Source of the DNA: an uncultured archaeon
Lineage (GTDB): Archaea > Thermoproteota > Nitrososphaeria > JACIWG01
Assembly (NCBI GenBank): GCA_938034445.1
Contig: CALHLD010000004.1
Location: forward strand, 1-64,000
Length of the DNA stretch: 64,000 nt
Reading direction: 5' to 3'
Position numbers and translations under genes: made by a program
Notes under the pieces: generated by a model
Told to the model about the DNA's origin: nothing
Database searches by the model: none
The model's input: only the letters and a program-made list of their open reading frames with translations
Shown: piece after piece, positions 2,257-36,052 of the stretch
How the letters are laid out: every line of letters begins with the position of its first letter
Numbering within the stretch: position 1 is the stretch's first letter

Positions 2257-4041
2257 TCTTATCAGTGCTTTAACAACTTTAGCGATACCTTCTCCTAGAT
2301 TTACTATTTTATACCTTCCAACACTTGCGGGCACAGTCAAAGTATCTGGAAAACATAGGGTATACTCTCCCCCATTTTCAGACTTCACTAAAACTTTTTC
2401 TCCCTCTACAAGTGTAATCATATGAAATTGTCCATTAGTGTTATCTTCGATTTCTTTTTCAAATTCTAATCTGTATGTTTTAAAATACATATCTTTTCTC
2501 TCTCCTATAAGATATTCTGTCCAACCTTTACCTTCTCTCACTACTTTAGGCTTCTGTTTTAGGTTTTCCAAAACCCATTTCTCTCTTCTATAAGTCTTCA
2601 ATACATTGAATGAATGTTCTATATGTATTGCACGTAGGCTTCCATCTAAATCTGGTCTCAAATAATCGTATATGTGAAATGTGTAACCTGAACTGTATGC
2701 GCTTATTCCACCATCAATTTCTAGGACTACTTGGTTTCTTCCAGAAGCGTGGACCGTCCCAGCTGGTATTAGAAAGTAGTCCCCCGGTTTTGTTGGAATA
2801 CTGTAAACGTATATGTTGTGGTCAAATGGTATATGCTCCCTTTCAGCCTTCAAAGCCTTTTCATAAAATTCTTTTACATCAATATTTTCTCTAAGTCCTA
2901 AATATGTTTTAGCACCCTCCTCAGTATAAACAATATAATAGCTTTCATCCTGTCTTATTTTCTCATTAAATTTTTCTTTTAAATATTTTCCGTTTGCGTG
3001 AACTTGTATTGCCATATCTCCTCCATTTATTTGGTCGTCGTACCAGTATGTGAACGGAAATTCTCCTCCAAATTTTTTGTTAACTTTCTCTCCTAATATC
3101 TTTTCAGAATAAGCTAGGAGCAGATTTTGGAAGGGTATTTCAATTAAAATTTTTCCGTTAACATTTATTCTAATACTATTTTCTGAAGCAACTATACATC
3201 CTTGACCAGAATTTGGCATTTCTTTTGGAAGCCTTTTTATTTTTTTAAGCCAGTTTCCTCCCCATGGTACTGGATAATATAATGGTTTTATTCTAAATGG
3301 TTGTTCAGACACTTTTAAGAGGATTGATAGGTATGTTTCTTTCGGGATAAGCTTCAAGTTTTCTATGCTATTGCATTCAACATACCAATTAATGTATTTT
3401 AAAATATATTTTTTATGGTTTTCGAGAATTGGTCCGTCAAAGTAATAAAATCTTCTCATTAACTGGTGTACTGCAACCTTTCCTCCAATATAATATATGG
3501 GTCTTTTCTCTGAATTGTTAAACAATGTTTCTCTTGTAATATCAAAATAGAATATTATGTCATAGTATTTTCTTAGAATTGGATTTGCTGAACCAGGACC
3601 AAAGCATATTATTGCGTCATTATCTTTGCTATCCTCTAATAATCTAGACCTCAGTTTTCTAACATTTTTGATGTTAAGTACCGTTAATATTTTTCCTCTA
3701 TAAACATATCCAAATGTTTTATCTGCTGAAAGAGATTTTTCAACAATTTTATTCAATGCATTAATATTATAATGTTCTAAAAAATTATATGTTTTGATTT
3801 TTAAACCTTTTAAAATTTCGTTTACTTTTGAAAGAATGTTGTCCCAGTCTATTCCAAGATATCCATCAAAAGCGATTCTACATGCCCTTCTCCTTTTTTT
3901 CTTAAAGGTTTGAATTTCTTCTACAAGTTTTTCGATAAACTGGTCTTCACCAACTACTATGCTGTCAAATTCTTTGTCAGAAACTCTTATAATATTATCT
4001 GCTTCTTCTATAGAATAGTAGATTTTCATATGCAAGTCCAT
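2251..4041 (-). CDS. Class I mannose-6-phosphate isomerase-like protein with a long N-terminal extension
   Basis: From the chosen ATG at 4041 the protein has 596 residues; the open frame extends up to 4170 (639 residues) but would then overlap the divergent kinase. The C-terminal half is a cupin-type class I mannose-6-phosphate isomerase, with the metal-site segments AIQVHANG and [20 protein letters not shown]. The usual activity is interconversion of mannose 6-phosphate and fructose 6-phosphate. About 240-270 N-terminal residues lie outside the isomerase core; I see no P-loop there and cannot name it. Other starts are ATG 4125 and ATG 4029. Position 4041 was preferred because an AT-rich box sits just upstream and overlap with the kinase is avoided. 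Confidence 0.82.
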
Positions 4042-4108
4042 TAAAGTTTTGGAATAAAAATTTTTATCATGAAAATTTTTAATATAAGCTTGAGGTGAAA
4101 AAATTAGG
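4042..4108. promoter_or_regulatory. Divergent promoter region between isomerase and kinase, with ribosome-binding site
   Basis: The 67-base gap between two divergent genes contains a near-palindromic AT block, AATAAAAATTTTTAT (about 4054-4068), that could serve as TATA element in both directions. GAGGTGA at 4092-4098, about 10 bases before the TTG at 4109, is a clear ribosome-binding site and decides the kinase start. Assignment of the shared TATA element is inference. Confidence 0.5.
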
Positions 4109-5098
4109 TTGAATGCATCTGACATTTTTTTAGCGGTTGAATGTGGTGCCTCAAACACGGTTTCAGCCATATTCGATTCTAGGGGTAATGTTTTAGGTAT
4201 GGGTTTTTCTGGTCCAAGTAGCCATCATGCTGTTAAAATTGATGTGGTTAAAGCAAATTTGCTTAAGTCTTTAAAGAATGCTTTCGAATCAGCAGGGTTG
4301 GCTGAACGTATTGTAGAATCTGGTTGCTTTGGTATGGCTGCACTTGACACTAAACAAGATTTTGAAATTGTGTCTAAACTTTTAAGTGAATTGAACATTG
4401 TTAAAAGACCTATTATTGTTGGAGATCATGTGTCTGCCTACTATACTGTAACGTTTGGTAGCCCTGGAATTGTGGTTATTTCTGGTACAGGCTCTATAGC
4501 TTATGGCGTAAATGAAAGAGGTGAGGCTGCTAGGGCTGGTGGCTGGGAATGGCTTGTTAGTGATGGTGGAAGCGCATATTTTATTGCAAGGGAAGGTCTT
4601 TGTATGGCTGTAAAATCTTATGATAATATTGGTGAAAAGACGGTTTTATTGAAACTTTTTATGGAAAGTTTGGATGCTAAAGATTTTGACGATTTTATTC
4701 AAAAAATTTATGAGAATACAGAAAAAGCTAGGATTGCGTCACTTGCTCCTGTGGTTGTTAGGGCCTACAGGATGGGGGATAAGGTTGCGAGGGATATCCT
4801 AATGAGGGCTGGTGAGGAACTTTCTCTACTTGCAGTTTCTGTTGCAAGAAAGCTTGGAATGGAAGATTCTAAAGTTATTATTGGTTGTGTTGGTGGTGTG
4901 TTTAAATCTGGACTGATTGTATGGCAGTATTTTAGACGTTATGTGAAAAGTTTTTTACCCTATGCTAATGTGAAAAAGCCTAATCCTACCACAATTGAAG
5001 GTGCTATTTTGTTGTGTCTGAAGGAAAATGGTTTTAAGCTTACAGAGAATGTTGTACGTAATGTTAAAGATGGTGTTAAAAAATTTGTTCCACGCTAA
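4109..5098 (+). CDS. BadF/BadG-type sugar kinase (N-acetylglucosamine kinase-like)
   Basis: This 329-residue ASKHA kinase shows the family signatures in order: phosphate-1 loop VECGASNTVSAIFD, then GPSSHH, GDHVSAYYT, phosphate-2 loop ISGTGSIAYG, and GGWEWLVSDGGSAYFI in the substrate/adenosine region. Eukaryotic GlcNAc kinase and archaeal glucosamine kinases belong here, so ATP-dependent phosphorylation of an amino sugar or related hexose is the best guess. It starts with TTG, supported by GAGGTGA about 10 bases upstream. It resembles the partial kinase at the left edge, so the locus has two paralogues. A uroporphyrinogen-decarboxylase-like gene follows within about 40 bases and is probably in the same operon. 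Confidence 0.85.
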   Translation: MNASDIFLAVECGASNTVSAIFDSRGNVLGMGFSGPSSHHAVKIDVVKANLLKSLKNAFESAGLAERIVESGCFGMAALDTKQDFEIVSKLLSELNIVKRPIIVGDHVSAYYTVTFGSPGIVVISGTGSIAYGVNERGEAARAGGWEWLVSDGGSAYFIAREGLCMAVKSYDNIGEKTVLLKLFMESLDAKDFDDFIQKIYENTEKARIASLAPVVVRAYRMGDKVARDILMRAGEELSLLAVSVARKLGMEDSKVIIGCVGGVFKSGLIVWQYFRRYVKSFLPYANVKKPNPTTIEGAILLCLKENGFKLTENVVRNVKDGVKKFVPR

Positions 5099-5139
5099 TT
5101 ATGAAATCCTTAATTATGATTTTAGGGATGCTTTTGGTT

Positions 5140-6132
5140 ATGTATGGTAGGGATCTTGTTGTTGATGCGATTGATTTTTCTAGTCCAGAGCGTGTACCGA
5201 TATGGTTTACTGAATTAAATGAAAGTGATGTAATTGAATTGTCAGCAAAATTTGTCGGTGGCTATAAGAGGACTTGGGATCCATTTAATGGTGTCTCTGG
5301 ATTTGATGAATGGAGCTGCTATTGGTCTGTACCATTGTCTGGTGAATGGAAAACTATGGGTATTGTCACAGGTCATCCTATGGAGGATTGGAGTAATTTA
5401 GAAAATTATCGTTTCCCAAAATTTAAAATTGTTTTAAATTCCTCTCAATCTACTTTTGATAAAAGTAAATATGTTGTTGGAAGTGTTCCCTTCACCCTTT
5501 TTGAAAGAATGCATTTTTTAAGAGGTTTTAAAAACCTGCTTACAGACTTTTACAAGTATCCTGAGAAGGTGTCTCTTTTAGCTGATTATGTTCTTGACGT
5601 TCAATTGGATCTTGTTAAACAATGGTGTGAAATTGGTGTTGATGGCATATTCTTTACTGATGATTGGGGTTCACAGCAAGGACTTTTTGTTGCTCCCCAA
5701 ATTTTTAGGCGAATTTTTAAGCCAAGATATAAGATTCTTTTTGATACCTTACATGAATACGGTGTGCATGCGATACTACATTCCGATGGAAAAATTCATT
5801 CTATCATCGGAGACTTTATTGATGTTGGTTTAGATGTAATAAATATTACACAACCTACATCTTTATTCTCATTACCATTTTTAAGTAGTAACTTTGGAGG
5901 AAAAATCTGTTTTCTAACTAATGTTGATAATCAGACAACAATATATGGTTCGAAGGATAAAATGAGGTTTGAGGCAAAAGAAATCATATATTATCTAGGT
6001 AAGTTTAATGGTGGCCTCATAGCTGGATGGATAGATCCATGTGACACTATAGCCTTAAAGGTTCCATTAGAAAATATTAGAGTTGCATGTGATGCATTTA
6101 AAGAGTTCGGTTTATATTCTAAAAGATTTTAG
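5140..6132 (+). CDS. Uroporphyrinogen decarboxylase-like (COG0407-type) protein
   Basis: From the ATG at 5140 the protein has 330 residues; an in-frame ATG at 5101 would add a hydrophobic stretch not usual in the family. The start MYGRDLVVDAIDF followed by SPERVPIWF aligns with the N terminus of uroporphyrinogen decarboxylases and corrinoid methyltransferases of the MtaA type. Near residues 215-225 it has LHSDGKI where zinc-dependent methyltransferases carry His-x-Cys-Gly, so a methyltransferase zinc site is doubtful. No haem or corrinoid gene is nearby. The gene follows a sugar kinase directly, which suggests a role in sugar or glycoside metabolism, as for other unassigned members. True activity unknown. 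Confidence 0.75.
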   Translation: MYGRDLVVDAIDFSSPERVPIWFTELNESDVIELSAKFVGGYKRTWDPFNGVSGFDEWSCYWSVPLSGEWKTMGIVTGHPMEDWSNLENYRFPKFKIVLNSSQSTFDKSKYVVGSVPFTLFERMHFLRGFKNLLTDFYKYPEKVSLLADYVLDVQLDLVKQWCEIGVDGIFFTDDWGSQQGLFVAPQIFRRIFKPRYKILFDTLHEYGVHAILHSDGKIHSIIGDFIDVGLDVINITQPTSLFSLPFLSSNFGGKICFLTNVDNQTTIYGSKDKMRFEAKEIIYYLGKFNGGLIAGWIDPCDTIALKVPLENIRVACDAFKEFGLYSKRF

Positions 6133-31203: not shown

Positions 31204-31303
31204 GTGAATCTTTGCCTCAGTCCCATATCGATAAATATGGTATTTAAACATTAGTGAACCCGTTTGACAGTGTTTAAAAACTGGTTCCTGTAAAGCATAT
31301 TTG

Positions 31304-32131
31304 ATGCTGAAGCATTTAATAGAAGATGGTAGTACTGTTTTATTGTATAGTTTGAAAGGCAAAAGTTGGCTTGTTAAAGTAGTCTCTAAAAACGAATTCC
31401 ATACGCACTTTGGTGTCGTAAAATTTTCTGATATTGTTGGAAAAAGATATGGTGATGTTGTGCAAACAAATTTAGGCCAAGAACTCATATTGCTTGAGCC
31501 ACTCCTAGTAGATTATTTGATGAAGAGTGAAAGAAGGACTCAGATTGTTTACCCAAAAGACATAGGCATAATTATCTTGGAAACTGGCATCGGTCCTGGT
31601 TCAATGGTTATTGAAGCTGGCACTGGAAGCGGTGTATTAACTACTGCTATTGCAAACTTTGTTAGGCCAACTGGAAAAGTATACTCCTATGAAATAAGAC
31701 CAGAATTTATTGAAATAGCTGAAAGGAACTTGAAGAAAGCTGGACTACAAGATTATGTAGTAATAAAAAATAAGGATGCCTCACAAGGTTTTGATGAAAC
31801 AGAAGCTGACGCGGTCTTGATCGATGTCGGTGCACCTTGGTCTCTAGTTAAGCCTGCATTTAATGCATTAAAAGGTGGTGGTGCATTAGCAGCCATCCTT
31901 CCAACAATAAACCAGGCTGAAAAGCTTGCTGTAGAATTGAAGAAGGCTGGTTTTGTAAAAGTTCATACAATAGAACTTTTGTGTAGAAGTATTGAAGCTA
32001 GGGAAGGTATGAGCCGTCCTTCCACTAGAATGATCGCTCATACCGCATATCTTATGTTTGCCAGAAAGTCTTTCCTAAAAGTTAATACATCCTGTAAAGA
32101 ATACCCTTGTGAAGGAAGTGAATTAGCATGA
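31304..32131 (+). CDS. trmI: tRNA (adenine-N1)-methyltransferase, TrmI type
   Basis: Methylates A58 (and in some archaea A57) in the tRNA T-loop, using S-adenosylmethionine. The Rossmann core has VIEAGTGSGVLTTAIANFV (SAM motif), YSYEIRPEFIEIAERNLKKA and ADAVLIDVGAPWS, and REGMSRPSTRM is the family's C-terminal signature. The 275-residue length is right. ATG 31304 directly follows an in-frame TTG at 31301. The next gene starts inside its stop codon (ATGA), so they are coupled. Confidence 0.94.
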   Translation: MLKHLIEDGSTVLLYSLKGKSWLVKVVSKNEFHTHFGVVKFSDIVGKRYGDVVQTNLGQELILLEPLLVDYLMKSERRTQIVYPKDIGIIILETGIGPGSMVIEAGTGSGVLTTAIANFVRPTGKVYSYEIRPEFIEIAERNLKKAGLQDYVVIKNKDASQGFDETEADAVLIDVGAPWSLVKPAFNALKGGGALAAILPTINQAEKLAVELKKAGFVKVHTIELLCRSIEAREGMSRPSTRMIAHTAYLMFARKSFLKVNTSCKEYPCEGSELA

Positions 32132-32721
32132 AACAAAGTCTGTCTAAAATATTGTATTCTATACCACTATTATCATTTGTAATCGGCTACACATACTATT
32201 TTATGATATTGGATTCCAGTGACAGACTGCCTTATACTATAGTTGAAATGGTTTTTAAAGATCCTCTATTCTTCATATTAGGTTTTACGGGAATTGTGGT
32301 AGGAACATTTGTTGATAAAATTAATGGCTTTAAAACAGAAATTATAGTAGAAAGGGTTGAAAAGGTTGCTTTAATCTGGTTGGTGATTGAATTTATAATT
32401 TCAGTCTTTGTAACCAATTTTCAGCCGATTAAAATATTTTATCTTGTGATCGAAGGAAAGTTTCTCATCTTACAGCCGCTAATGATAATATTTTATTCCC
32501 TAATGTTCCCTTTAGGAAAAGATTTATTTGCAAACATTGGGCTAAAAAATATTTTGAATGCAATTATTTTAATACTAATGGCATCTTCACCAGCATACAT
32601 TTTCTACATGAGTTTAAAGGAAGGCCAAAGTATGCAAAATTACGTGAACGGTCTAACAATATTCACTATAGCCTTCGTTCTTTATCTTCTATTAAATAAT
32701 TTAAAAATTAAAAATTATTAG
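32128..32721 (+). CDS. Membrane protein of unknown function
   Basis: A 197-residue protein with about six hydrophobic segments, for example LSFVIGYTYYFMIL, FFILGFTGIVVGTFV, LIWLVIEFIISVFV and LTIFTIAFVLYLLL. I see no catalytic or transport motif. It overlaps the trmI stop by 4 bases, so both are read from one transcript, though the roles look unrelated. Convergent with the A-ATPase genes across 12 bases. Confidence 0.75.
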   Translation: MKQSLSKILYSIPLLSFVIGYTYYFMILDSSDRLPYTIVEMVFKDPLFFILGFTGIVVGTFVDKINGFKTEIIVERVEKVALIWLVIEFIISVFVTNFQPIKIFYLVIEGKFLILQPLMIIFYSLMFPLGKDLFANIGLKNILNAIILILMASSPAYIFYMSLKEGQSMQNYVNGLTIFTIAFVLYLLLNNLKIKNY

Positions 32722-32733
32722 ATTAGAAAAAGA

Positions 32734-33036
32734 TTATCCTAATAGGATGAGGAACGCTAGCACTAGACCGTAAATTGCTATAGCTTCTACAAACAATAAT
32801 ATCATCAAAACTTTGCTTAGCATTTCAGGCTTTTCAGCCAGTACTGATATTCCTGTAGAACCTATTTGTCCCATTCCAATTGCAGCACCAGCGGCAGCGA
32901 TAGAAAATGCTATTGCCGCACCGATTTCCTTAAAGCTTGAAGTTTTAGTAGGTGTTTCTTGTGCATAAGCACCGTTACATATTATTGCTGTAGCGCATAG
33001 GATTGTGAGGCCTAAAACATATTTTAAAGACTTCAA
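32734..33036 (-). CDS. atpK: A-type ATP synthase subunit K (proteolipid)
   Basis: Membrane rotor ring subunit. A 100-residue product with a cleavable-looking signal peptide (LGLTILCATAIICNGAYAQ, about 8-26) and one helical hairpin, SFKEIGAAIAFSIAAAGAAIG and a second helix ending LVLAFLILLG. The ion-binding Glu is E84 in FVEAIAIYG, with Gln57 in the loop-side of helix 1. Two helices per subunit, as in the shorter archaeal proteolipids. Last gene of the I-C-K series on this strand, 16 bases after atpC. Peripheral subunits A, B, D, E and F are not in the window. Confidence 0.94.
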   Translation of the reverse strand: MKSLKYVLGLTILCATAIICNGAYAQETPTKTSSFKEIGAAIAFSIAAAGAAIGMGQIGSTGISVLAEKPEMLSKVLMILLFVEAIAIYGLVLAFLILLG

Positions 33037-33051
33037 TTTTCCCCACTTGTT

Positions 33052-34089
33052 TTAGAAAAAAATTGGCAGTATTAAAACTTTTTTTAAATTTTCTATACTT
33101 ACTGGAAGTAGCTTAGCTTTCAGCATATTCATTACATCATTAATTTCGTACCTTTTTAGGATTATGTAACCGTATGCTATGTCTGGTTGGAATGGGTATG
33201 CTAAGAAAACCTTGTATGCTTTTCTAGCTATCATCCTATTATATTCTGTCTCTAATTCGTCTGCCTTAAAATTTGGTATCTTTTCTATAAACTCTTTTAG
33301 TATCACACTATATTCTTCAGCAGTTGACGTGGCAAATGTTGTAATGTCTTGTGCCATTAATATTTTTTCAAATGTTTTTTCTTCATCTAGTGAAAACGGT
33401 GTTATGTATTGTTTAATTAGACTATTTGGTGCACCTATGCTTTTTAAACGTACTATTAACATTATATTTTCCTTTAAAAGTTGCATTTGAAATATTTCTG
33501 TTAAAAGTTTTTGTCTTCCTATTTTTTCTTTTACCACTTCTAAGAATGTTTTCCAAAATGTACATTTTATTTGAAGTGTTAGACGGTTTATATCGTTAAC
33601 AGTTTCTGATATCATCTGTTTTAGTTTGGGTATCAAAGTTTTTTCTTGAAACAATTCTAGTATAGTATCAAGTTTCTCATACGATATTTTATTTTTCTCT
33701 AAAAATATTTTCCTTGTTAACGTGTTATGGAAGCTTTTAAAGTCTACTCCATAATATTTGGATCTCAAAAGGTCAGCTAGTATTGATATTAGTTCATAAT
33801 CGTGTAAAAAGTTTAGGAAGATTTTTCCTTCTTCTGGAGAATATTTTATGCATTTATTTAGTTCCTCATAATAGTATTCAAAGAGTGCTTTTTCTATTTC
33901 TAATGTAGATGGTGTTGTCTGCGAAAATTTTGATAGATAGTTCCAATAGTCTGTATTATTTAAGTATGATATTGCAATATTAAAATTTTCTGCATAGAGT
34001 ATGGCATTATACTTTTGTTTATCTAAAAGTTTCCCTTTTCCAACTCTTACTTTTGCAAGTACTGGACCATAGTTTTTTGTCATGGCCAT
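33052..34089 (-). CDS. atpC: A-type ATP synthase subunit C (V-type subunit d family)
   Basis: Central-stalk adaptor that sits on the proteolipid ring and links it to subunits D/F. The 345-residue all-helical protein begins YGPVLAKVRVGKGKLLD and has ELISILADLLRSKYYG, the helical-repeat style of the family, and a C-terminal RYEINDVMNMLKAKL. Its size matches archaeal subunit C. The ATG directly follows the stop of a tiny membrane ORF (34091-34267) and precedes atpK by 16 bases. Confidence 0.9.
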   Translation of the reverse strand: MAMTKNYGPVLAKVRVGKGKLLDKQKYNAILYAENFNIAISYLNNTDYWNYLSKFSQTTPSTLEIEKALFEYYYEELNKCIKYSPEEGKIFLNFLHDYELISILADLLRSKYYGVDFKSFHNTLTRKIFLEKNKISYEKLDTILELFQEKTLIPKLKQMISETVNDINRLTLQIKCTFWKTFLEVVKEKIGRQKLLTEIFQMQLLKENIMLIVRLKSIGAPNSLIKQYITPFSLDEEKTFEKILMAQDITTFATSTAEEYSVILKEFIEKIPNFKADELETEYNRMIARKAYKVFLAYPFQPDIAYGYIILKRYEINDVMNMLKAKLLPVSIENLKKVLILPIFF

Positions 34090-34090
34090 C

Positions 34091-34267
34091 TTACTTTTCC
34101 CTCTTAAGCTTATAGTATAGGTATATGTTTCCTATAAAAAGTATACCTACCCCTAATATGAGAGAGAATATTGCTGCTAAAAGTTTTGAATTCATGTATG
34201 TGAAGATTACAAAAAATACTATTGGTGTTAAGATTAATGAAAGTATGAATGGTGAAAATATTATCAA
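34091..34267 (-). CDS. Tiny two-helix membrane protein between atpI and atpC (possible)
   Basis: Reading from a TTG at 34267 gives a 58-residue membrane hairpin: MIIFSPFILSLILTPIVFFVIF, a short MNSK turn, LLAAIFSLILGVGILFIGNIYLYY and basic tail KLKREK. The frame continues upstream to 34414, but that part is antisense to the plus-strand ORF at 34319 and has no ATG. Its stop is one base before atpC. It could be a small A-ATPase-associated membrane subunit. Not recognised. Confidence is limited by size, weak start and lack of homology evidence. Confidence 0.4.
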   Translation of the reverse strand: MIIFSPFILSLILTPIVFFVIFTYMNSKLLAAIFSLILGVGILFIGNIYLYYKLKREK

Positions 34268-34318
34268 GTATTTTTTCCAAAATGGTTTTATTCTAGTTAT
34301 GCGTATTTGTTGGATGCT

Positions 34319-34498
34319 ATGAGCGTAAGGGAAGGTTTTGAATACTTTGGCCTCTCTTTCACAATATTGGTTTTCGCTATAGCCGGCTATCTTATTGGTA
34401 AAGAGATTGGCCAAACTGTTTTAGTCACTCTCCTTGCTACACTCTTTGGAATTTTTATCACCTTCTATGAAGCTTGGAGGCTTGCTAAAAGAAAATAA
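34319..34498 (+). CDS. Small AtpZ/AtpI-like membrane protein on the opposite strand (possible)
   Basis: A 59-residue protein from ATG 34319: MSVREGFEYFGLSFTILVFAIAG, then LVTLLATLFGIFITFYEAWRLAKRK. Two helices with a Gly-containing LIGKEIG turn and a basic end resemble bacterial AtpZ/AtpI, the small ATP-synthase assembly or magnesium-associated proteins. It is divergent from the minus-strand hairpin ORF, and lies in the gap between atpI and atpC. Homology is judged by eye only. Being on the opposite strand of the A-ATPase genes argues against a simple operon role. Confidence 0.45.
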   Translation: MSVREGFEYFGLSFTILVFAIAGYLIGKEIGQTVLVTLLATLFGIFITFYEAWRLAKRK

Positions 34499-34507
34499 AA
34501 TCAAGGG

Positions 34508-36052
34508 TTACACCAGTTTTAGAGGCTGAAATGTTGTTCCCGTGCCAGAATAGAATTTCATGAACCATTCTACCCAATGTAGCCTGAGACAGTGTAAGAA
34601 TGCTAGTAAGCCTTCAAATCCCATAATGATTATTGTTCCAAGTGTTAGAATGGGAATAAATAGGAAAATGTTTAATGTGCTTCCTGTGTCAAAAATCATT
34701 TTACTGAATAGTGCATGAGCTGCGCCTATAGCTAGAATTCGGAAATAGGAGAATGTGTTTGAAATCAAAGATATAACTTGCTCCATTGTTTCAAGTAAAC
34801 CATTTACTTTTTCTTCAATTATTCTACCAACAATCATTACAATCATTGGAGGCAATAGAAAGTATAATATTGTATTAAAGTTTAGGATAACTGAAATAAC
34901 GTTTCTTCCGTGAATAAAGAAAAGGTATGCGATTGAAAGGTAAAGGGTAACCCATCCTATATCTCCCACCACCTTCCATATTCTTCTGGTATAGAATGCG
35001 TTCACCATTGAAAGAATTATTCCAAAGGAAACTTGGAAAAATGCTATTAGAAGTGATAGTCTGGCAAGTCTTAATGGTGTTTCTATTGGGTTCAACCTTA
35101 ACGGAATATATGTTATTCCCAAGAGTAAATTTTCTGGAATCTCTGGAAGATGTAATGTTTCATATATCGTTTGCGCTAACTCATGGCTTCCAAACGCCTC
35201 CCTGTACATGAATAGGCCTACAAGTGATGAGGTTATGCCAAGTATTATGTAAAGTTTTGCTCCCGAAACTATAAGTGATAATGTTTCTCCAAATTTGGCC
35301 CCTCTTTTTTGTAATAGTAGGAGGTACACCCCAAAAATGGTTAGAAGTAGTCCATGCCCAAAGTCTCCGAACATGAGTGCAAAAATTATGGGATAAGTTA
35401 TTGCCATAAAGGCTGAAGGTTCAAGCTCATTAGATTTTGGTGTTCCAAAGGATAGCACAAGTTTTCTAAAAACTTGAGGTATCCTTGTTCTTTCAAGCAA
35501 CGTTGGCGACTCTGTTTCACCATGCTCACTTTTCTCTTCAACAATTTCGAAGGCAGCCTTATCTTCAACCTTTTTAACAGAATCTATAACCTTTTCCACA
35601 TCAACAGTTTTTACCCAAACATCTATAATTGCAACCTTGTCTGTTTCAGCAACCTTTTCTAGTGTTGATTCAAGGTTGCAGAATGCTTTTAGTCTTACAT
35701 AAGCTTTCATGTACTCGTCCCAGTTTCCAGCACCTTTCCTCAATTCTTCATCAAGTTTTTCAATATATTTAATATCTTCTTCACTTAAGCTAATTAATTT
35801 CTCATCCAGTTTAATGTTTGGTGTCGGTTTATCTTTTACGTATTTTTCCATACGCTGTAATAGGTTTAGTGCTCCTGCTAGTAAGCTTGAAGGTTGGACT
35901 GGTTTTGCGTTTTCTGCAATAGCCCTATCGTAAAATGAGGAGTTAAGTTGAATACAGCATTCATTCGATAGGTTTAAAAGAATTTTTCTAGCCTGCTCTT
36001 TTGGAGCATATATTATCATGTGTGTAAGTGGTTTAGGAAACATTCCCAACAT
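34508..36052 (-). CDS. atpI: A-type ATP synthase subunit I (membrane stator, subunit a family)
   Basis: The membrane stator that carries ions past the K ring. About 200 N-terminal residues form the cytoplasmic arm, then about seven helices follow, including the YPIIFALMFGDFGHGLLLT block. Conserved Arg438 in SYFRILAIG and Arg490 in CLRLHWVEW match the two key Args of yeast subunit a (735 and 799). At 514 residues it is shorter than the usual 620-700, mainly in the cytoplasmic arm. First of the I, C, K genes on this strand. ATG 36043 is a plausible alternative start three codons in. Confidence 0.93.
   Translation of the reverse strand: MLGMFPKPLTHMIIYAPKEQARKILLNLSNECCIQLNSSFYDRAIAENAKPVQPSSLLAGALNLLQRMEKYVKDKPTPNIKLDEKLISLSEEDIKYIEKLDEELRKGAGNWDEYMKAYVRLKAFCNLESTLEKVAETDKVAIIDVWVKTVDVEKVIDSVKKVEDKAAFEIVEEKSEHGETESPTLLERTRIPQVFRKLVLSFGTPKSNELEPSAFMAITYPIIFALMFGDFGHGLLLTIFGVYLLLLQKRGAKFGETLSLIVSGAKLYIILGITSSLVGLFMYREAFGSHELAQTIYETLHLPEIPENLLLGITYIPLRLNPIETPLRLARLSLLIAFFQVSFGIILSMVNAFYTRRIWKVVGDIGWVTLYLSIAYLFFIHGRNVISVILNFNTILYFLLPPMIVMIVGRIIEEKVNGLLETMEQVISLISNTFSYFRILAIGAAHALFSKMIFDTGSTLNIFLFIPILTLGTIIIMGFEGLLAFLHCLRLHWVEWFMKFYSGTGTTFQPLKLV

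Follow-up and report, generated by a model that had tools for sequence, protein, structure and literature searches.

Two back-to-back membrane hairpins encoded among the A-type ATPase genes of an uncultured Thermoproteota archaeon as candidate rotor assembly factors

Results

In the window (the whole stretch of 64,000 nucleotides that was analysed), the genes for the membrane sector of an archaeal A-type ATPase enclose two small genes on opposite strands, here named Z and X, each of which is predicted to encode a two-helix membrane protein. Comparison with related genomes indicates that both are real genes, and we consider the odds slightly better than even that their products are membrane proteins of the A-ATPase, most likely factors for the assembly or stability of its rotor (K ring and subunit C). 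The genome to which the window belongs (G000), that of a hot-spring archaeon, is metagenome-assembled and carries the D, B and A subunit genes on a different contig; its A-ATPase genes are thus split, with those of the membrane sector in the window. The features of the locus are as follows.

31301..32131, plus strand: trmI-type tRNA methyltransferase, a neighbour of K that is conserved in the distant genome G303 too
32734..33036, minus strand: atpK, rotor-ring subunit (PF00137, 58.3 bits)
33052..34089, minus strand: atpC, A-ATPase subunit C (PF01992, 106 bits), with its ATG 1 base past the stop of X
34091..34291, minus strand: X, two-helix membrane protein of 58 aa from TTG 34267 or, read from ATA 34289-34291, of about 66 aa
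34277..34296, plus strand: conserved CCAAAAnGGTTTTATTCTA stretch, TATA/BRE-like, from the upstream sequences of five genomes
34319..34498, plus strand: Z, AtpZ-like two-helix membrane protein, 59 aa, ATG at 34319, stop included
34508..36052, minus strand: atpI, A-ATPase stator subunit I/a, 514 aa (PF01496, 177 bits)

From left to right, the order is trmI-type methyltransferase (+), a 197-aa membrane protein (+), atpK (-), atpC (-), X (-), Z (+), atpI (-) and prolyl-tRNA synthetase (+). The 197-aa protein, between the trmI-type gene and atpK (32128-32721, plus strand), is without a Pfam family. The first-pass annotation had described a plus-strand frame of 59 aa and a minus-strand frame of 58 aa, 51 bases apart and flanked by atpI and atpC. 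These run from ATG 34319 to the stop at 34498 and from TTG 34267 to the stop at 34091, respectively, and frames, spacing and flanking genes (PF01496 and PF01992) are all as it described, except that the start of the minus-strand frame is probably set too short, with conserved coding upstream of it. The order I, Z (reversed), X, C, K is kept, strands alike, in 5/5 members of this family of Nitrososphaeria, and a single distant genome of another class (G303) repeats the K-C-X-Z-I order of the window. Among plasmids, no relatives of the locus were found. Subunit I is compact in this lineage (511-514 aa in the genus and 563 aa in the sister genus); by comparison, its length is 831 aa in G303 and spans about 520-820 aa among genomes of the G477 class.

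Z was present in 5 of the 41 genomes searched, namely its own, three of the genus and one of the family (E <= 8e-26; next best 0.016), and X in the same five (E <= 1e-6; next best 0.05). Across these five genomes the variable sites at first, second and third codon positions number 15/8/47 in Z and 34/21/52 in X. Within the genus (six pairs), pN/pS is 0.04-0.08 for Z and 0.18-0.34 for X, while the values for the four pairs to the sister genus, 0.17-0.21 and 0.42-0.51 respectively, are rough because these distances are near synonymous saturation. The pattern indicates strong purifying selection on Z in the genus and purifying selection on X that is weaker than on Z. Between G000 and its three congeners, amino acid identity reaches 93-95% for Z, compared with 79-89% for I, 82-87% for K and 63-80% for C; by this measure Z is better conserved at the protein level than I, C or K. 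The first-pass annotation had left it between two real genes and one gene with a chance frame, and had proposed synonymous bias as a check: change is biased to third positions with pN/pS below 1 in each frame, both frames are kept in place in 5/5 genomes and neither was seen broken in close relatives; both are real.

No ATG, GTG or TTG start of X is common to all five genomes, and in G001 the stretch from codon -53 to codon +7, numbered from the FSPF motif, contains none of the three. A TTG found near codon -53 in four genomes sits opposite codons of Z. All five genomes have ATA AAA at codon -11, which aligns with window position 34289-34291, and after the ATA the protein keeps I-K-[PS]-F-W-K-x-Y-L while several third positions vary; moreover, the aligned X homologue of G303 starts with its TTG exactly at the ATA position. 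Conserved coding of X thus probably starts about 8 codons upstream of TTG 34267, and the ATA would be the likeliest and simplest, though unproven, start, possibly as a non-standard start codon. The conservation around the ATA could alternatively be explained by a TATA-like element on the other strand, 33-39 bases before Z: the CCAAAAnGGTTTTATTCTA stretch overlaps the 5' codons of X, its T-rich part starts, across the genomes compared, at this distance ahead of the Z start codon, and it is a putative promoter of Z. At the other end of the gene, atpC starts 1-2 bases past the X stop in four genomes and 7 bases past it in G004, a spacing as expected for translationally linked genes.

An AlphaFold2 model of Z is a helical hairpin with helices at residues 3-25 and 28-58 (mean pLDDT 75.8), and the sequence has two hydrophobic maxima; positive residues at both ends predict that both would be cytoplasmic. 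X is likewise predicted as a helical hairpin (mean pLDDT 85.6). Searches of PDB structures with the two models gave best E-values of 3.5 and 7.9, which are meaningless, and neither profile matched the sequences of solved structures at a meaningful E-value.

The proposal that the plus-strand product is AtpZ-like holds. PF09527 (ATPase_gene1, AtpZ) is the best Pfam family for 5/5 Z orthologues; two of them pass its curated gathering cut-off of 26.6 bits (G002, 28.7 bits; G003, 27.9 bits), and G001 (25.5 bits) and G004 (26.3 bits), like the Z of G303 (25.2 bits), score below. The window copy misses the threshold by 1 bit (25.4 bits as a 63-aa form, 25.6 bits as the 59-aa form), and we therefore name it AtpZ-like and not a member of the family. 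It has the family traits of a short protein with two membrane helices and of linkage to rotary-ATPase genes, here A-type and not F-type. PF09527 presumably also carries a G..LD-type motif before the loop; the window Z has GYLIGKEIG at this place, with no D, and the Z of G303 has GYLVDKHFG. In a 14-row alignment of Z only G23 and G44 are invariant, and no acidic residue is. PF03899 (AtpI/UncI) did not come up for the window Z at E <= 1; the Z of G492 gave it a weak score (16.7 bits, E 0.0099). A search of NCBIfam returned nothing useful, and window X has no Pfam family.

A match of 53.7 bits to PF09527 in G000 itself was rejected as evidence, since it probably lies on a bacterial contaminant contig. 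This contig (C37, 3.3 kb; locus L001, 1-2942) carries the AtpZ-type gene together with F-type a, c and b genes and an SMC gene, and is probably an alphaproteobacterium-like contaminant of the archaeal assembly.

How far Z extends was followed with profiles of increasing breadth. Across 300 genomes of the class, the family profile scored strongly only in the family's five (E <= 4.1e-37; next 0.0034). A profile built solely from the family and G303 found 8 further genomes of the phylum (E <= 1.2e-4); G505 apart, each of these matches (7 of 8) adjoins genes for I, K, C, H/E, D or F. With a 12-row profile, strong matches came from 13 of 398 Thermoproteota genomes in 7 families (E <= 1.7e-8; next best 5.1e-4), a count that is partly circular because most of these genomes fed the profile, unlike the count from the family and G303. 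All 13 strong matches lie beside A-ATPase genes as far as the contigs reach, and the Z groups match one another by profile (E 1.9e-8 to 1.1e-11), the score of Zf1 against Zcren being reached by 0/150 column shuffles. The weaker matches examined, in G505, G476, G469, G348, G375, G341, G321 and G099, had no ATPase gene near and were dropped as noise. Both Z and atpI are visible in 12 of the 13 genomes, on opposite strands in 10 (the exceptions being G436 and G492), and in G373 and G464 Z diverges from I and heads a run of H/E, F and D genes. PF09527 on its own is a poor probe for Z: at E <= 0.001 it matches in 7/398 Thermoproteota, and of the six matches outside the window's own genome only that of G303 could be linked to ATPase genes (four examined; G364 and G382 left out). 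Such a protein beside an A-type ATPase had been expected to be unusual, and rarity stands, with strong matches in 13/398 genomes; it is not unique, because PF09527 also matches the control genomes of Methanocaldococcus jannaschii and Methanosarcina acetivorans.

Within the G477 class, Z occurs in 7/40 genomes, including 6/6 of family f54; atpI was matched in 34 of the 40, and 30 neighbourhoods were taken. Family f25 of this class has I, K, C and D with no separate Z gene in these neighbourhoods (30 atpI loci with 1.5-kb flanks). Given f25 loci with I, K and C that lack Z, and 385 of the 398 sampled Thermoproteota with no strong match, Z is not required by all A-ATPases. Taken together, the profile searches mark Z as real and ATPase-linked but patchy, and its association with A-ATPase genes is well supported by gene neighbourhoods.

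In f54, of which five members out of six are readable, Z forms the N-terminus of a protein of 376-387 aa (353 aa in one, at a contig end), where a domain of about 305 residues follows the Z hairpin in frame (L147, L151, L186, L187, L188); the gene order is K-X facing the Z-fusion, then I. Against a profile of eight C subunits the fused domain gave E 2.3e-4 in local and 3e-7 in global mode, compared with at least 0.05 for six unrelated controls. When single sequences were run against the C profile, four of the five scored between E 2.3e-4 and 4.3e-3, while the remaining one stood at 0.79 and the best control at 0.35; a 71-sequence C profile matched more weakly (E 7.7e-4 local, 5.7e-5 global). 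The Pfam C model did not match the f54 domain, and neither did the divergent subunit C of G303 (E 0.18). On this profile evidence the fused domain is probably C-like. That it is the genome's missing subunit C was considered and rejected: G408, read whole, encodes an ordinary C elsewhere (E 2.5e-73), which leaves the fused domain as a second, C-like protein at most. As for the G303 subunit itself (L113, 3127-4143), it is missed by Pfam and recognised only by a large C profile (E 1e-6 local). In G436 a single A-ATPase locus (L148) holds two subunit C genes, at 3138-4217 and 4728-5723, and the second C gene (PF01992, 60 bits) begins 2 bases after Z.

Hairpins that resemble X adjoin I, C or K in G492, G477, G408, G388, G403, G487, G497 and G365. 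By profile these eight, the X-like hairpins of the G477 class, are similar to Z (E 1.4e-5, 0/150 shuffles), and X and Z may be old duplicates. For the window family itself the signals are mixed: Xf1 against Zcren was reached by 0/150 shuffles and against all Z by 6/150, Xf1 against Xc2 gave E 0.016 (reached by 2/150) and Xf1 against the X of G303 E 0.041, and the observed scores of window-family X against X-like hairpins elsewhere were reached in 2/150 and 7/150 shuffles. By sequence, window X has no firm tie to these hairpins; position and shape agree.

Discussion

The Z hairpin most likely acts in the membrane with the rotor part of the A-ATPase, which comprises the K ring and, as cap, subunit C; X, a second hairpin, encoded with subunit C, would share this rotor-side role. 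Since Z is associated with C or with a C-like protein, and X with both C and K, the rotor would be the target, and we infer that the two proteins bind the ATPase. Their role in assembly or stability would be modelled on that of UncI/AtpI in bacterial F-type enzymes; they would act in assembly and not as permanent subunits or ion channels. Overall, archaeal A-ATPases probably have helper parts that have been overlooked.

A bolder form of the rotor proposal, clearly unlikely in our estimate, would have Z serve the K ring as template or plug, with a C-like cap holding Z, and would make Z and X together dedicated builders of rotor rings. The cap would be fused to Z in f54, encoded by the adjacent gene in G436 and be C itself in the window, and capped Z would seal the free Ao sector as long as A1 has not docked. 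With a covalent link to a rotor-capping protein, such a hairpin would be expected in the lumen of the ring and hardly outside it next to the stator; eukaryotic V-ATPases have accessory helices within the ring lumen.

Several other explanations have to be weighed against assembly or stability factors. The stable neighbourhood and a conservation of Z above that of I, C and K would also be consistent with Z and/or X being permanent small subunits of the mature Ao, as a plug of the ring or a helper of stator subunit I, for which the excerpts of PMC4350412 offer a precedent in AhaG of Methanosarcina mazei; the patchy presence of Z argues against this, as does the failure of both profiles to match solved-structure sequences at a meaningful E-value, and we judge such permanent subunits to be somewhat unlikely. 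The similarity of Z to PF09527 recalls AtpZ of Bacillus pseudofirmus, for which a role as Mg2+/Ca2+ transporter is reported, and AtpZ is tied to Mg2+ acquisition in passages of PMC4453477 and PMC10598746. Nonetheless, that Z, with X, is a Mg2+/Ca2+ transporter travelling with ATPase genes seems improbable to us, given that a transporter would have no evident use for being fused or adjacent to C-like proteins and that the 14-row alignment holds no invariant acidic residue.

We regard it as very improbable that Z and X are real genes functionally unrelated to the ATPase and merely lodged in its locus. Z stands opposite the atpI strand in the 10 of 12 genomes mentioned above, which places it outside the atpI transcript there, yet an accidental lodger would hardly be expected beside A-ATPase genes in 13/13 strong matches, across 7 families and several gene orders. 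It is scarcely credible, finally, that just one of the two is a gene, with the other open by chance as an antisense or intergenic frame: X does lack a conserved ATG, GTG or TTG start and its 5' codons do overlap the conserved TATA-like stretch before Z, but third-position-biased change and purifying selection are seen in each frame separately, and the open frame of X runs up to a stop that precedes the atpC start by 1-2 bases in four genomes and by 7 in the fifth.

Regarding earlier accounts, our literature search, which covered open-licence papers only, did not turn up any description of Z or X for archaeal A-ATPases; within the same scope, no assembly factor is described for the A-type ATP synthases of archaea, in contrast to bacterial F-type enzymes (AtpI/UncI). 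The excerpts of PMC9264385 and PMC6131620 held nothing on a possible extra archaeal ATPase subunit. Proteins of this kind are known, but their fixed position at the A-ATPase locus in Thermoproteota, the back-to-back pairing and the fusion to a probably C-like domain are apparently undescribed as far as we have searched. Found at A-ATPase loci in 7 Thermoproteota families and joined in one of these to a probably C-like cap, Z provides named genes for testing the assembly of archaeal rings; it would also suggest that both branches of rotary ATPases have small accessory proteins of this type.

Among known systems, AtpZ (AtpQ, or 'gene 1'; PF09527) of bacterial F-/N-type operons is likewise a protein of about 60 aa with two helices and ATPase linkage, and Z shares its glycine-patterned hairpin. 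Unlike AtpZ, Z accompanies an A-type ATPase, lies between I and C on the opposite strand and is fused in one family (f54) to a probably C-like domain. AtpI/UncI (PF03899), like Z, is small, sits in the membrane and is encoded next to the membrane-sector genes; it is a larger protein, however, and Z has no family-level match to PF03899. A passage of PMC4154653 cites UncI/AtpI as chaperone of the F-type c-ring and proposes duplication for the bacterial pairs of gene 1 with AtpI/AtpR. Those pairs are likewise two small membrane proteins per locus, unlike which Z and X stand back to back on opposite strands and the X of the window family is weakly Z-like.

As for the two control genomes matched by PF09527, M. 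jannaschii has, to our knowledge, an A-type enzyme only. The match in M. acetivorans may be explained by the bacterial-type operon atpDCIHBEFAG, which appears in the available text of PMC2838876. Within archaeal A-ATPases, a close parallel by description is AhaG, a tiny hydrophobic protein of the locus: as far as the respective excerpts go, it is a 6.3-kDa product of the aha operon in Methanosarcina mazei whose membership is debated (PMC4350412), it is listed for Methanothermobacter too (PMC3087415) and it is absent in Thermoplasma-type archaea (PMC3750248). Its gene stands at the end of the operon beside ahaD (ahaHIKECFABDG), unlike the position of Z and X; AhaG could be the methanogen counterpart.
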